A DNA stretch of 64,000 nucleotides. Origin: Phycisphaerae bacterium. Lineage in GTDB: Bacteria; Planctomycetota; Phycisphaerae; UBA1845. The translations under genes and the position numbers were made by a program. Below the pieces are notes generated by a model, which saw only the letters and a list, made by a program, of their open reading frames with translations, was not told where the DNA came from and did not search any database. Below, piece by piece: positions 4,151 to 64,000 of the stretch. Position 1 is the stretch's first letter. Every line of letters starts with the position of its first letter. The stretch is taken from NCBI GenBank assembly GCA_029260075.1, contig JAJDDY010000058.1, positions 124,001 through 188,000 of the forward strand, given 5' to 3'.

Positions 4151-7100
4151 ATGAATTCCAGCAAGGTCAGACAGCAGTTTCTCGATTTCTTCGCCGCCAA
4201 GGCCCACACCATCGTCGAATCCTCTCCAGTCGTGCCGCTGGACGACCCGACGCTGATGTTCACCAACGCGGGGATGAACCAGTTCAAGGACGTCTTTCTC
4301 GGCACCGGCTCACGATCGTACGTGCGTGCGGCGGATACGCAGAAGTGCATTCGCGCCGGCGGTAAACACAACGACCTCGACGACGTCGGCCAAGACACCT
4401 ACCACCACACGTTTTTTGAGATGCTCGGCAACTGGTCGTTCGGCGATTACTTCAAGAAGGAAGCCATCGCGTGGGCGTGGGAGCTGATGACCGAAGTGTG
4501 GGGCATCGAGAAAGATCGCCTTCACGCCACATACTTCGAAGGCGACGAGTGCGACGGTCTCGAACCGGACACCGAGACGGCCGAACTTTGGAAGACGGTC
4601 ACCGACATCAGCCCGGCCAACATCCACCCCGGCAACAAGAAGGACAACTTCTGGGAGATGGGCGACGTCGGCCCGTGCGGACCGTGCAGCGAGTTGCACA
4701 TCGATCTAACGCCCGACAAGTCCGGCGCGTCCCTGGTCAACGCCGGCGATGCCCGGGTGATTGAACTGTGGAACCTGGTGTTTATTCAGTTCAACCGTGC
4801 GAGTGACGGCAAGCTGTCACCGCTACCCGCGAAGCATGTCGATACCGGCATGGGCTTCGAGCGCGTGACGGCGGTACTGCAAGGGATGGAGCGGAGCGCG
4901 CTGGGTCGGGTGAGCAACTACGACACCGATGTGTTCACGCCGATTTTTGATGCGATTCGGAAGAGAACGGGTGCGCCAGAGTATACGGCGACACTGCCAG
5001 GTGAAACGAAGGCCGCGCTCAAACCGAGCCGCGACCGTAAGGAAGCGGAGCCGGCACCGAGCCGCGACCGCAAGGAAGCGGACCCATCACCGAGCCGCGA
5101 CCGTAAGGAAGCGGTTTCTCCAGCATGCGCCGGCGCCCCGCTCGCCTACCTCATCACGTTCCACACCTATGGCACGTGGCTACACGGCAGCGGTCGGGGT
5201 TCCGTCGATCGTGACCACAACACGCCGGGAACACCTCTTCTCGATGAGGATGCACAGCGCGAGCATGACGATTTCATCCGCCTGAAGCATGAACCGGTCA
5301 CACTGGACGAAAAACGTCGCGCCAGTGTGAACTCAACGCTCCGCGAAGTCGCGGAGTTCCGCGGTTGGACTGTTCACGCACTCAGCGTGCGAACCAATCA
5401 CGTTCACGTGGTCGTATCAGCCGACGCGCCGCCTGAGCGCGTGATGATCGATTTCAAGTCTTACGCTACACGGCGTATGGTCGAACAAGGCCTCTTTCCG
5501 CCTGAGACGAAGGCCTGGACTCGTCATGGAAGCACACGCTATTTATGGAACGAGCATGCCGTGGACGCTGCGGGTAAATATGTAATGGAGTCCCAGGGGC
5601 CCGACTTGCCGTTTGCCGAGATCGAGCAGTTGAACAAACGAGGTGGGGATTCGTCGCGTGGATTGCTTCTCGACGATCAACAGGCGCGTCCACCGCTCCC
5701 TTACGGTCGCGGCTCGGTTCAGGCGCCGACGCATGAATCGGATCAGGCGCGGACACATGAACAGGTGATGATCGACGTTTCCTATCGCGTCGTCGCCGAC
5801 CACTTGCGCTGCCTAACCTTCGCCATTACCGACGGGGCCATGCCCAGTAACGAAGGGCGGGGTTATGTGCTCCGCCGAATCCTCCGCCGAGCGGTACGTT
5901 ACGGTCGGCAATACATGGGCATGAACGAACCCTTCATGTGCGACCTCGTCGCGCCGCTTGTGGAACACATGGCTGATGCGTTTCCGGAATTGCGATCCTC
6001 GCATGGCGGAAAGAACATTGAGCACGTCGTCGAAATATTTCGCGACGAAGAGGCGTCGTTTCTAAAGACGGTCGGCAGGGGCATCGACCTACTCGACGAG
6101 GAGATCATACGCCTGTTCAGCGATGCGGTATGTGCCGATAGAGGATGGCGATGCGGAGTGACCGCGTCAGCGTCTCGTCACCTTTGCGACTACGTTCCGG
6201 AGGCGCGTGACGCCTTCGGACCTGAAACGGCCATGTTCTGGTTTGAAGACGGCGAAGGCAAAGCACAATCCATAGAGGTCAACGACTTAAGTGCCGAGGA
6301 GTTCGCCAAGCATACAAGACAACGGATTGTCATCGCAGGTGACAGCGCATTCAGGCTACATGACACGTATGGCTTTCCTATCGACCTGACCAAACTCATG
6401 GCGGAAGAGCTTGGCTTTGCAGTTGACATCGCTGAGTACGAGCGACTAATGGAGGCGGCTCGACAGCGGGCTCGCGCGTTCACCGATGGGAAGGCGATGC
6501 TCTTTGCAGAGGACCTGAGCCGGTTGAGCCCGACCGAATTCACCGGTTACGACGGTCTAAGCGCTGATGACGGAGTGGTACGCGCCTTGTTTGGTGAGGC
6601 GTCCAAGGTGTTTACGTTGGAGCAGGGCCAAGAAGGTGGACTCGTACTGTATTCCACGCCGTTCTACGCGGAACAGGGAGGCCAGATCGGCGATCGCGGA
6701 TGGCTGAAGGGCCTGGACAATGCCTGGAGCTTCGAAGTCTACGACACCAAACGTGTCGGAAACGTACACCTTCATCTTGGAAAGTGCGTTTCCGGAACCA
6801 TACAAGCGAAATCGGCGCCAGCGGTTGCGTCCGGACTAATTCCACAGTTACCGGTAGATGGACGGAGCGGCGGCGTGCGTGCGGAAGTCGATTCGCAACA
6901 CCGCGTCCCCACCACGAAAAACCACACCTCCACCCACCTGCTCAACTGGGCGTTGCGTGAGGTGCTTGGTGATCATGTTCAGCAGAAGGGATCGCTGGTC
7001 GATCCGGAGAAGACGCGGTTCGATTTCTCGCACAACAAGCCGGTTAGCGATGAACAGCTTGAGCGCGTCGAAACGCTTGTGAACGAGCAGATCACAGCCG

Positions 7101-60319: not shown

Positions 60320-61318
60320 CTACGTTTCTCGACCGATGCAGGTGCCGATGTGTGCGGCTATGGCGGGCGAGAATCGTCTTTGTGCGTTTGCGTTCTTCGA
60401 GGATGCGCTATGCGTGAGCGACCCGATGATGGCGTGGGGATTCTCTTGCGTCGAAGCTTCAAGAAAGTTGATCGCGCCTTGGATTTTCGGCCCCATAGAC
60501 CCGGCCGGAAACTGACCGTCGTCAAGCCATTGCTTGGCTTCGGCTAACGTCATGTGGTCTAAGTGGCGCTCTTTCGGTGTGCCAAAGTCCAGGCAGACGC
60601 CGTCCACGTTCGTAAGAATCATGAGTAAGTCAGCATTAAGCTCTGCCGCCAGGCGTGCACTGGCGAAGTCTTTGTCGACGACGGCGCGCACGCCGTGCAT
60701 CGCGCCCCGGTCGTCACGCACGACCGGAATCCCGCCGCCGCCGCACACCACGAGCGTTTCTCCCGCCTGAACGGCGCGACGGATGCTCTCGATTTCCAAG
60801 ATACCGATTGGAAGGGGTGACGGCACCACGCGGCGATACGTTCCGGGTGAAACTTCGGCGGTTTGCCACTGTTCCTCGCAGGCCAATCGCTCAGCGTCGT
60901 CGGTGGAGAGGTGGCGGCCGATCGGTTTTGTCGGATTGGCAAAAGAGGGGTCGTCAGCATCTACGAGCACGGACGTAACGACGGCGGTGACCGTTCGGTT
61001 GTCGCCGCGCTGGACCAGTTCATTCATCACGGCTTGGGCGATCATATAACCCATGCCGCCCTGGACGTGCGCGACAGCGACTTCCATCGATAGCGGATAG
61101 ATGACCCCTGCTGCCGCTTTGTTGCGAACGAGAAAATTTCCGATCTGCGGACCGTTTCCATGTGTAATGACAAGGCGGTGACCCTCGCCGATGAGGTCCG
61201 CGAGCGAACACGCCGTGGCTCGTGAGTTTTCGAATTGTTCGGCCACGTTGCCTACCTGGTCCGGCCGCGATATCGCGTTGCCACCCAAGGCCACAACTAT
61301 GAGCGATCCATTGTCCAT
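60320..61318 (-). CDS. arcC: Carbamate kinase
   Basis: Transfers phosphate between carbamoyl phosphate and ADP, giving ATP, ammonia and CO2; the last step of arginine deiminase-type or purine catabolic routes. 332 residues, the family about 310. LIVVALGGNAISR, VITHGNGPQIGN, GMGYMIAQAV, VVCGGGGIPVVRD, VVDKDFASARLAAELNAD and FPAGSMGPK are all present. The last 15 residues reach the family I repeat region. No arginine or purine genes neighbour it. Confidence 0.92.
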   Translation of the reverse strand: MDNGSLIVVALGGNAISRPDQVGNVAEQFENSRATACSLADLIGEGHRLVITHGNGPQIGNFLVRNKAAAGVIYPLSMEVAVAHVQGGMGYMIAQAVMNELVQRGDNRTVTAVVTSVLVDADDPSFANPTKPIGRHLSTDDAERLACEEQWQTAEVSPGTYRRVVPSPLPIGILEIESIRRAVQAGETLVVCGGGGIPVVRDDRGAMHGVRAVVDKDFASARLAAELNADLLMILTNVDGVCLDFGTPKERHLDHMTLAEAKQWLDDGQFPAGSMGPKIQGAINFLEASTQENPHAIIGSLTHSASSKNANAQRRFSPAIAAHIGTCIGRET

Positions 61319-61445: not shown

Positions 61446-62495
61446 TCAGTCGACCATGGAAGGTTGGAGTTCGAGACCGCGACCCCACCCCTGTTCTCGG
61501 ACGGCCTCGGTAATCCGCTCGGCCATCTCCACGGCGGCTACGCCGTCCTCCGCGCTGACCGCGGGGGTTTGGCGTGTGCGGATAGATTCGAGGAACGACT
61601 CGAGTTCTGCGCGAAGCGGTTCCTGGTCGTCGACCTGAAGCGGTTCTACGTTGATCATCGACCCGAAGTCCAACGAGTGCGCCTGCGATTGCATTTGAGA
61701 AAGATCTTCGAAGTTGCGTTCCTTGGCCATCCGAATCAGATCCAAGTTGTCCGCGAGCTTGATGGCGACGCCGGATTTCTTCTGATAGTCCATCGAAAGA
61801 TAGCCGGTCGGGGCGAACACGCGAATTTTTCGCTCCGTCTTGAGCGCAAGACGTGAGGCCGTCATGTTCACCACGGTGTCGTTAGCGAAGCGGATGCGGG
61901 CGTTGGCGACGTCTTCGCAATCACTGAGGACGTTCACACCGACGGCGTCGACCGTGTACTCACGCTGGCGGACGAGGTGCAGCACAATATCGATGTCGTG
62001 GATCATCATGTCGAACACAACGCCTATGTCGGCACTTCGAAACGTGAATGGACTGATCCGGTGCGTTTCGATAAATCGCGGCGTGACCTCCATGCGAAGT
62101 AACGCTTGCACGACCGGGTTGAATCGTTCCGAATGCCCGACCTGTAGAAGTCGTCCGTGCTCGCGCGACGTCGCCAACATACGCTTGGCGGTGACAGTGT
62201 CGGGTGCGATCGGTTTTTCGACCAACACGTCCACGCCGCGGGCCATCAGCTCGGATACGACATCGGCGTGGTATACGGTAGGTACAGCCACAGAGGCTGC
62301 GTCGACCTCGCACGTCATATCAGCGACGGAGGCATACGCCGTGCCCCCGTGCTCGGCGGCGATGCCCTTCGCACGCGACAGGTCTTTGTCCACGACGGCC
62401 ACGAGTTCGCAGTCCTTCAGCTCACCATAAATGCGCGCATGATGACGACCCATGTGTCCGACGCCGATCACTGCGACCCGTAGTAATTGCTTCAT
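61446..62495 (-). CDS. Gfo/Idh/MocA-type oxidoreductase beside lpxA
   Basis: 349 residues. VAVIGVGHMGRHHARIYGEL is the NAD loop, then EKPIAPDTVTAKRML (the family Lys-Pro) and GHSERFNPVVQALL, then a C-terminal beta-sheet domain (VVFDMMIHDIDIVLHLV). Position between lpxA and carbamate kinase, 16 bases after lpxA, suggests a lipid A precursor role. In Acidithiobacillus and Leptospira a Gfo/Idh dehydrogenase (GnnA) next to lpxA makes the 3-keto sugar for diaminoglucose lipid A. The transaminase GnnB is not beside it here, so this assignment is only a suggestion. Confidence 0.85.
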   Translation of the reverse strand: MKQLLRVAVIGVGHMGRHHARIYGELKDCELVAVVDKDLSRAKGIAAEHGGTAYASVADMTCEVDAASVAVPTVYHADVVSELMARGVDVLVEKPIAPDTVTAKRMLATSREHGRLLQVGHSERFNPVVQALLRMEVTPRFIETHRISPFTFRSADIGVVFDMMIHDIDIVLHLVRQREYTVDAVGVNVLSDCEDVANARIRFANDTVVNMTASRLALKTERKIRVFAPTGYLSMDYQKKSGVAIKLADNLDLIRMAKERNFEDLSQMQSQAHSLDFGSMINVEPLQVDDQEPLRAELESFLESIRTRQTPAVSAEDGVAAVEMAERITEAVREQGWGRGLELQPSMVD

Positions 62496-62510: not shown

Positions 62511-63587
62511 TTAGGCTTCCTCGCGGACGAACGTGGCCGTCACGTTCTTGTCGCGGTCGAGCACGACGTCGATGGGGTTGCTGGTTCCGTTGAGGCCGCC
62601 GTTCCAACCCGCAAACGTCCAACCGGATTCCGGGTCGGCGACGAGTTGCATTCCTTGGATAGTGGTGTCCCTAGCCTTGAGTTGGTTCACGCTACCGCTG
62701 CCGACGATGTCGATCGTGAGGCGGTGGGGCGTGGAGAGTTTCCAGCTGTCGCGATGGATTGCGTCAGCGCGAAGCGATTCGAGGTATCGGCCGTGTCGAC
62801 CGTGGGCGAACGAGCGAAGAAGGAACTCGCACAGGTAACGGACGTGGGAGTTGTTGGATTCGCCGTTGAGGATTTCCTCGACGCGCTCCCGAATACCCGT
62901 GCCACTGAGTCGCGCGCGGCGAGAGAAGATTTTCAAGAACGTACCCTTGAGCGCCGCGATGTCGTCATAGTGGAATCCGCTCCGCTGCAGACCGACACCG
63001 TTGACCATGCGGACTTCGGTACGCGTACCGCGGGCTGCCACGACGACCATGTATGGAGGCACGTCGGCTGAAACGCGTGTCATTCCGCCTACGAAGGCGT
63101 GGTGCCCGATGGTAACGAAATGATGCACGGCGCAGTGCCCGCCCATGTTAACATGATCCTGCACGTGAACGTGTCCGGCGAATTGGACGTAGTTGGCAAA
63201 GATGCAGTTATTGCCGATGACGCAGTCGTGTGCGATGTGCACACCGATCAGCACGAGGTTGTTGTCGCCGATGCGCGTCACACCGCCGCCGTTGCCCGTA
63301 CCCGGATGTACCGACACCATTTCGCGAAACACGTTGCCTTCGCCGATTTCCAGTGTCGTCTTTTCGCCTTGGAATTTGATATCCTGCGGCGGGGTTCCGA
63401 GGACCGCCTGCGGAAAGACCTCGCAGTTGTCACCGAGCGTGGTGTGGCCTTCGATGGTCACATGGTGGTGTATCTTGCAACCGTCTCCGAGCACCACGTT
63501 CGGTCCGATCACGGAAAACGCTCCGACGTCGACGTCTTGCCCGAGCTGTGCGCCTCGGCTGATGATGGCTGTTGTATGGACGCTCAC
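62511..63587 (-). CDS. lpxA: LpxA (UDP-GlcNAc O-acyltransferase) with a C-terminal InlB-like repeat
   Basis: First enzyme of lipid A synthesis; moves a hydroxyacyl chain from ACP to UDP-GlcNAc. 358 residues instead of about 260. Residues 1-190 are the left-handed beta helix of hexapeptide repeats, with VHIAHDCVIGNN carrying the catalytic His. Residues 190-285 are the usual helical cap (MVNGVGLQRSGF). Residues 288-358 (HRLTIDIVGSGSVN to FAGWNGGLNGTSN and NVTATF) match the divergent InlB B-repeat family, a module usually found in secreted proteins. No stop or frameshift separates it. In an operon with FabZ upstream and Gfo/Idh downstream. Confidence 0.93.
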   Translation of the reverse strand: MSVHTTAIISRGAQLGQDVDVGAFSVIGPNVVLGDGCKIHHHVTIEGHTTLGDNCEVFPQAVLGTPPQDIKFQGEKTTLEIGEGNVFREMVSVHPGTGNGGGVTRIGDNNLVLIGVHIAHDCVIGNNCIFANYVQFAGHVHVQDHVNMGGHCAVHHFVTIGHHAFVGGMTRVSADVPPYMVVVAARGTRTEVRMVNGVGLQRSGFHYDDIAALKGTFLKIFSRRARLSGTGIRERVEEILNGESNNSHVRYLCEFLLRSFAHGRHGRYLESLRADAIHRDSWKLSTPHRLTIDIVGSGSVNQLKARDTTIQGMQLVADPESGWTFAGWNGGLNGTSNPIDVVLDRDKNVTATFVREEA

Positions 63588-63610: not shown

Positions 63611-64000
63611 TCAGTGCGATGTCGAATCAGTCAGTATGAATTTGATTTCGGCCTCGGCCACAAGCCGATCGCCTACGCGGGCCGTACCTTTGATGTGCCC
63701 CGTGTTGGAACGCACGCGAATCGTTTCTGCTTCCAGAACCAATTGATCACCCGGCCGCACCGGGTGTCGAAACTTGGCTTTGTCGAGCGAGAGCAGAACA
63801 GCCACCTTGCCCTTGTGCTCCAACTCTTGACTGAGCAAAACGCCGCCAATTTGGGCCAGCGCCTCGATGACCAAGACGCCGGGCATGATCGGCTCGCCTG
63901 GGTAGTGGCCTTGGAAGTAGGGCTCGTTGATCGAGACGTTCTTGATGCCCACGATGCGCTTCGTGCCGTCGATCTCGATGATGCGGTCGACCATGAGAAA
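63611..64000 (-). CDS. fabZ: FabZ (3-hydroxyacyl-ACP dehydratase) domain, start outside window
   Basis: Dehydrates 3-hydroxyacyl-ACP in fatty-acid synthesis. At least 130 residues; the frame is open to the window end and reads FLMVDRIIEIDG, matching the internal PFLLVDR of FabZ, so the real start is beyond the edge and ATG 63994 is not it. GHYPGEPIMPGVLVIEALAQ has the catalytic His and Glu. In planctomycetes FabZ is often fused to LpxC (from memory); as it precedes lpxA by 23 bases that is likely here too. Shares the lipid A operon. Confidence 0.92.
   Translation of the reverse strand, partial: FLMVDRIIEIDGTKRIVGIKNVSINEPYFQGHYPGEPIMPGVLVIEALAQIGGVLLSQELEHKGKVAVLLSLDKAKFRHPVRPGDQLVLEAETIRVRSNTGHIKGTARVGDRLVAEAEIKFILTDSTSH

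Follow-up and report, generated by a model that had tools for sequence, protein, structure and literature searches.

Organisation of the lpxA locus

The window, i.e., the whole 64,000-nucleotide stretch of DNA that was analysed, carries at 62511..63587 of the minus strand one open reading frame of 358 codons with a GTG start and with neither internal stops nor frameshifts. LpxA is the cytoplasmic enzyme of the first step of lipid A synthesis. The preliminary description had read this frame as an LpxA with an InlB-like repeat at its C-terminus, and both parts were recovered by profile searches. Residues 2-259 match the LpxA equivalogs NF003657 (E 1.5e-91, 306.2 bits, cut-off 226) and TIGR01852 (E 3.9e-89, 298.3 bits, cut-off 231.05), and residues 175-258 match PF13720 (E 7.7e-12, 45.9 bits, cut-off 24.5). 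The divergent InlB B-repeat profile PF18998, suggested at the outset as a check on the repeat, found it at residues 296-355 (E 3.4e-7, 30.6 bits, above the curated cut-off of 23.6); with the C-terminal 84 amino acids searched alone the match reached E 2.3e-8 and 34.4 bits, and TIGR02543 matched the same piece (22.6 bits, cut-off 20.95). The features of the gene and its neighbours are as follows.

60320..61318, minus strand: carbamate-kinase-like gene (our reading), after the Gfo/Idh gene
61446..62495, minus strand: Gfo/Idh/MocA oxidoreductase, nearest to UDP-GlcNAc 3-dehydrogenase (NF040723, 206.9 bits, below the cut-off of 450)
62511..62513, minus strand: stop codon of the fused gene
62514..62726, minus strand: divergent InlB B-repeat-like domain, residues 288-358 (Pfam match 296-355; PF18998, AlphaFold2, tail tree)
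62727..62768, minus strand: linker, residues 274-287; D275, R279 and W282 do not vary among the tailed LpxAs (alignments)
62769..63038, minus strand: LpxA C-terminal helical domain, residues 184-273, with the family motif SFAHGRHGRYLESLR at its end (PF13720; modelled helices to residue 271)
63039..63587, minus strand: LpxA left-handed beta-helix, residues 1-183, with HIAHDC (H117, H120) (NF003657/TIGR01852, alignment to 1lxa and 1j2z)
63611..64000, minus strand: FabZ end of the fused lpxC-fabZ gene, whose remainder lies outside the window at L033:3612-4931 (NF009667, TIGR00325, TIGR01750)

The frame opens straight into the LpxA beta-helix, without a signal peptide. The query matches the LpxA of E. 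coli (1LXA) with an E value of 1.7e-58 and that of H. pylori (1J2Z) with 5.4e-60, and in the alignment to both H120 of HIAHDC lines up with the catalytic histidine of the E. coli enzyme; H117, A119, H120, D121 and C122 are unchanged across 29 relatives. The fused protein is like these two enzymes in the beta-helix, the helical C-terminal domain, HIAHDC and the lipid A cluster, but past the helical domain it has 85 extra residues, which form a conserved linker followed by a beta-domain. Among the solved LpxA chains listed, lengths run from 189 to 305 residues, and none matches the query beyond residue 261. The LpxA part is complete even if the tail is left aside, and its catalytic histidine is in place, so the tail is probably an accessory.

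In the genome of the window the gene order is skp, lpxD, the fused lpxC-fabZ, the tailed lpxA and the Gfo/Idh oxidoreductase gene, and it is similar in relatives, where lpxC and fabZ also form one fused gene. LpxC-FabZ is likewise a fusion within the same pathway; it unites two enzymes, whereas the fused LpxA gains a non-enzymatic domain. The Gfo/Idh gene adjoins lpxA in most relatives, and with its nearest match, below the cut-off, being UDP-GlcNAc 3-dehydrogenase, the lipid A of this lineage may possibly hold 2,3-diamino sugars (GlcN3N). No match to the carbamate-kinase-like gene was found beside lpxA in the loci of relatives. At the locus L037, lpxA comes after an scpB-like gene (ORF reading) and the tail is still present. 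A second, tail-less LpxA of 271 amino acids is encoded off the cluster (G000:C21:10047-10844; L078:5030-5845, minus strand). It is ~38% identical to the cluster copy and scores above the LpxA equivalog cut-off, and similar second copies are present in nearly all family and order genomes examined. No case of a fusion in this paralogue was seen.

Distribution and descent of the fused gene

In a first survey of 60 related genomes, that of the window included, the match extended over the tail in 15 members of the family, and in most other genomes it ended at residue ~275-298. Four more tailed genomes (G251, G255, G344 and G359), again of this family, came from a class-wide sample of 397, and among the LpxAs listed from that sample none outside the family was tailed. 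In a phylum-wide sample (392 genomes, at most 11 candidates scored in each), an LpxA end and a tail occurred together only in the gene of the window. Open frames of the right size elsewhere in the class or phylum were exported PF18998 proteins or, once, a plain LpxA. Overall, 19 genomes carry the tail; by group code they represent 15 genera, all from one Phycisphaerae family of an uncultured lineage. The fusion, which the preliminary description had proposed to look for in related planctomycetes, thus recurs in 18 relatives within the family.

The named contigs with the fusion are metagenome-assembled genomes of Phycisphaerae or Planctomycetota, including the single-contig, 3.8 Mb CP070718. 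Such data are prone to assembly errors, and a misassembly or frameshift joining two genes had been named beforehand as what would undo the observation. However, the frame is intact, the in-frame junction is identical in all 19 genomes, which come from separate assemblies, one of them the 3.8 Mb single contig, and the downstream gene begins just 15 bp past the fused gene. Because independent assemblies of 15 genera keep the same fusion, an artefact is excluded for practical purposes.

PF18998 is common in the genomes of the family. The repeat had been said to belong normally to exported proteins, and indeed, judged by eye, every further carrier inspected, whether from these genomes or from the phylum sample, has a lipobox or a signal peptide or resembles an extracellular repeat protein. 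LpxA is the sole cytosolic carrier among those found. Its tail is like PF18998 (Flg_new_2) in the pattern GxGxV...LxAxxxxGxxFxxWxG...P...VxAxF, in the above-cut-off match and in the all-beta prediction; unlike in the exported-looking carriers, the domain is single, C-terminal and attached to a cytosolic enzyme.

When a tree was built from the 271 columns of the LpxA part, leaving the tail aside, the 19 tailed sequences fell together with three tail-less ones into one clade with a support of 97/88. L024, one of the three, is truncated where its contig ends and is almost identical to the tailed L048; the other two, L018 (genome G013) and L019 (genome G006), are real losses inside the tailed clade. 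Both retain a stub of the linker, DPVHR-(D)SW or DPVHR-(A)TW, and the tail-less outgroups are without it. A second tree, of only 73 columns, was built from the LpxA tails and 37 exported PF18998 domains of the same family, and it placed every LpxA tail in one clade (97/91). Multiple independent fusions are supported by neither tree, and the two together argue for one capture, vertical inheritance and two losses. Overall, it appears nearly certain from these comparisons that the fusion is genuine and evolved in this way. The tail can be regarded as dispensable, since two lineages within the tailed clade have lost it. In G013, the 3' end of lpxA with its stub reads into the palindrome CACCCTCTCCCTCACAGGGAGAGGGCAGGGTGAGGG (L052 ~5180-5215; G013:C47:4035-4068), a REP-like element (CCCTCTCCC...GGGAGAGGG) with a second close copy elsewhere in the genome, and this element is a possible cause of the loss in that lineage. 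In G006, lpxA ends in a stop codon that overlaps with the probable start of the following gene.

The origin of the gene may be pictured as one recombination in the ancestor from which a sub-clade of the family descends. The cluster copy of lpxA would have received, in frame at its 3' end, a single PF18998 domain, the donor most likely being among the numerous exported proteins with this domain. The fusion would then have been kept by vertical descent over at least 15 genera, with the two losses coming later.

Predicted structure and conservation of the tail

AlphaFold2 modelled the tail alone as six beta-strands and no helix, with a mean pLDDT of 83.7 and most strand blocks at 92-96, and in the full chain the strands mostly had a pLDDT of 89-96. 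The linker (271-286) was modelled at low confidence (pLDDT 42-57). Among solved structures, no significant match of the tail was found by sequence or by shape (best Foldseek E 0.96; best VIA Z 5.2, no clear match), and the weak structural matches were mostly to beta-domains of surface proteins. From these models we infer a folded, non-catalytic beta-module seated on the C-terminal helices; thus joined, it would be displayed in three copies by the LpxA trimer. The InlB B repeat of Listeria is described as a beta-grasp-like fold that lacks the helix, and a 'sticky patch' that may serve in binding is reported on its strand beta-2 (PMC8900821). The two are alike as small helix-less beta-domains, predicted in the case of the tail, and the patch is a precedent in the kind of domain only. 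InlB is an exported invasion protein, unlike LpxA, and since the structure search with the tail model gave no significant match, a fold common to both would be conjecture.

Synonymous sites were saturated in most pairs, and dN/dS was read from the least saturated ones. In the two closest pairs it was ~0.11-0.12 for the tail (0.104/0.943 in L011/L044 and 0.150/1.277 in L011/L043), which points to purifying selection. Mean pairwise identity was 73% in the beta-helix, 71% in the helical domain and 47% in the tail. The tails differed by 0.41, 0.33 and 0.63 at codon positions 1, 2 and 3, the third being the richest, and this excess, together with the low dN/dS, indicates that the tail is translated and constrained, yet less so than the enzyme. 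None of the 19 tails contains a frameshift or stop, and most of their invariant positions are the hallmarks of the PF18998 fold, unchanged over 15 genera. The dN/dS near 0.11, the uninterrupted tails and the invariant hallmarks all speak against a fusion that simply drifted in and persists as a cheap appendage with no selected role today. Such an origin would agree with the faster evolution of the tail compared to the core, with the two losses and with the lack of an evident functional site, and it is considered rather improbable.

A loop region (W323, N329-G-x-L332, N337-P338) is specifically conserved in the LpxA tails. W323 is present in 95% of them compared to 22% of the exported PF18998 domains, N329 in 79% compared to 0%, L332 in 89% compared to 11% and P338 in 100% compared to 19%. 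Some of the exported copies have related motifs (SGxxNP), and the conservation of the loop could be partly inherited from the founder domain. Across the tailed LpxAs, the net charge of the tail varies from -4 to +4 and its GRAVY from -0.64 to -0.01. In the core alignment, no LpxA residues tracking the presence of the tail were found beyond phylogeny, and the two losers differ at 1 and 3 of the 103 core columns that are invariant in the tailed enzymes.

Possible roles and significance of the fusion

A role in docking or assembly is favoured because the LpxA tails specifically conserve the loop together with the linker residues D275, R279 and W282. The tail would offer a surface to a cytosolic partner or between trimers, acting via the loop and the linker, and its role would not be catalysis, export or membrane binding. 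On the residue patterns, this mechanism is put forward tentatively. The low identity of the tails between genera, the predominance of fold hallmarks among their invariant positions, the low-confidence model of the linker, the loop conservation perhaps owed in part to the founder domain, the dispensability evident from the two losses and a partner protein that is still hypothetical count against it; moreover, nothing suggests a tight docking on the core, since core residues do not change in step with the tail. Taken as a whole, one capture with vertical retention of a docking or assembly module is the best explanation at hand, at somewhat less than an even chance.

The beta-domain might instead merely stabilise or solubilise the LpxA trimer or shield its C-terminal end, with no partner involved. 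Hallmark positions shared with the exported copies, a freely drifting surface charge and a tail that can be lost are what such a cap would lead one to expect. It would also be expected to contact the core, yet core residues do not track the tail, and the retention of lineage-specific loop and linker residues is not accounted for; this reading is regarded as unlikely, albeit not by far. Another proposal sees in the tail a module that tunes the choice of acceptor or acyl chain by binding a sugar nucleotide, acyl-ACP or a glycan precursor. The aromatic and asparagine residues conserved in one loop region (W323, N329 and N337) would suit a binding site, and the second, tail-less LpxA would permit a division of labour. 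In comparison, the acidic ACP would want a positive charge, and none is conserved in the tail; the catalytic core is complete without it, and close tail-less relatives have the same lipid A cluster. A substrate-binding function is accordingly judged improbable.

LpxA and LpxD act two steps apart in the pathway. This, and the proximity of their genes in the genome of the window, would fit an anchoring of LpxA by its tail to LpxD or to the inner membrane for channelling, partners that the preliminary description had already suggested. The composition of the tail, neither hydrophobic nor conserved basic, speaks against a membrane anchor, and the charge range of -4 to +4 disfavours electrostatic binding to the membrane or to ACP alike. 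Moreover, the tail remains where lpxD has left the cluster: lpxD is absent upstream of lpxC-fabZ in the tailed loci L035, L038-L041, L043-L045, L050 and L051, each lpxD-less cluster checked has an LpxD match elsewhere in its genome, and several tailed genomes retain lpxD in place. The tail is hence not tied to a loss of lpxD, and the evidence is against a need for lpxD as a neighbouring gene, a statement about gene position and not about binding to the LpxD protein. A tether of either kind is thus deemed very improbable.

The docking or assembly reading has a broader form, in which a beta-module of exported proteins entered the cytosol in a single recruitment and became a conserved docking or assembly surface on the first enzyme of lipid A synthesis; this planctomycete lineage would then assemble or regulate its lipid A enzymes in a manner not known from other bacteria. 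This form is possible, if doubtful. LpxA and PF18998 are each well known. A search of the open-access literature, with most subscription journals outside its scope, found no LpxA with a PF18998 domain, and no paper on PF18998 under its Pfam short name, in line with the earlier remark, in which no described example was known.

A study of the planctomycete Planctopirus limnophila (PMC10632474) reports nearly all of the genes for lipid A synthesis (lpxABCDKL) to be essential, so a modified LpxA is of some consequence. The gene is a clear case of a domain usually confined to exported proteins that was captured, and then retained, by a core cytosolic enzyme. The natural pairs of tailed and tail-lost LpxAs make the role of the domain directly testable, and if the tail is inert, the family still offers a clean example of long-retained domain accretion. 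Overall, lipid A assembly in Phycisphaerae may be organised differently from the textbook pathway.
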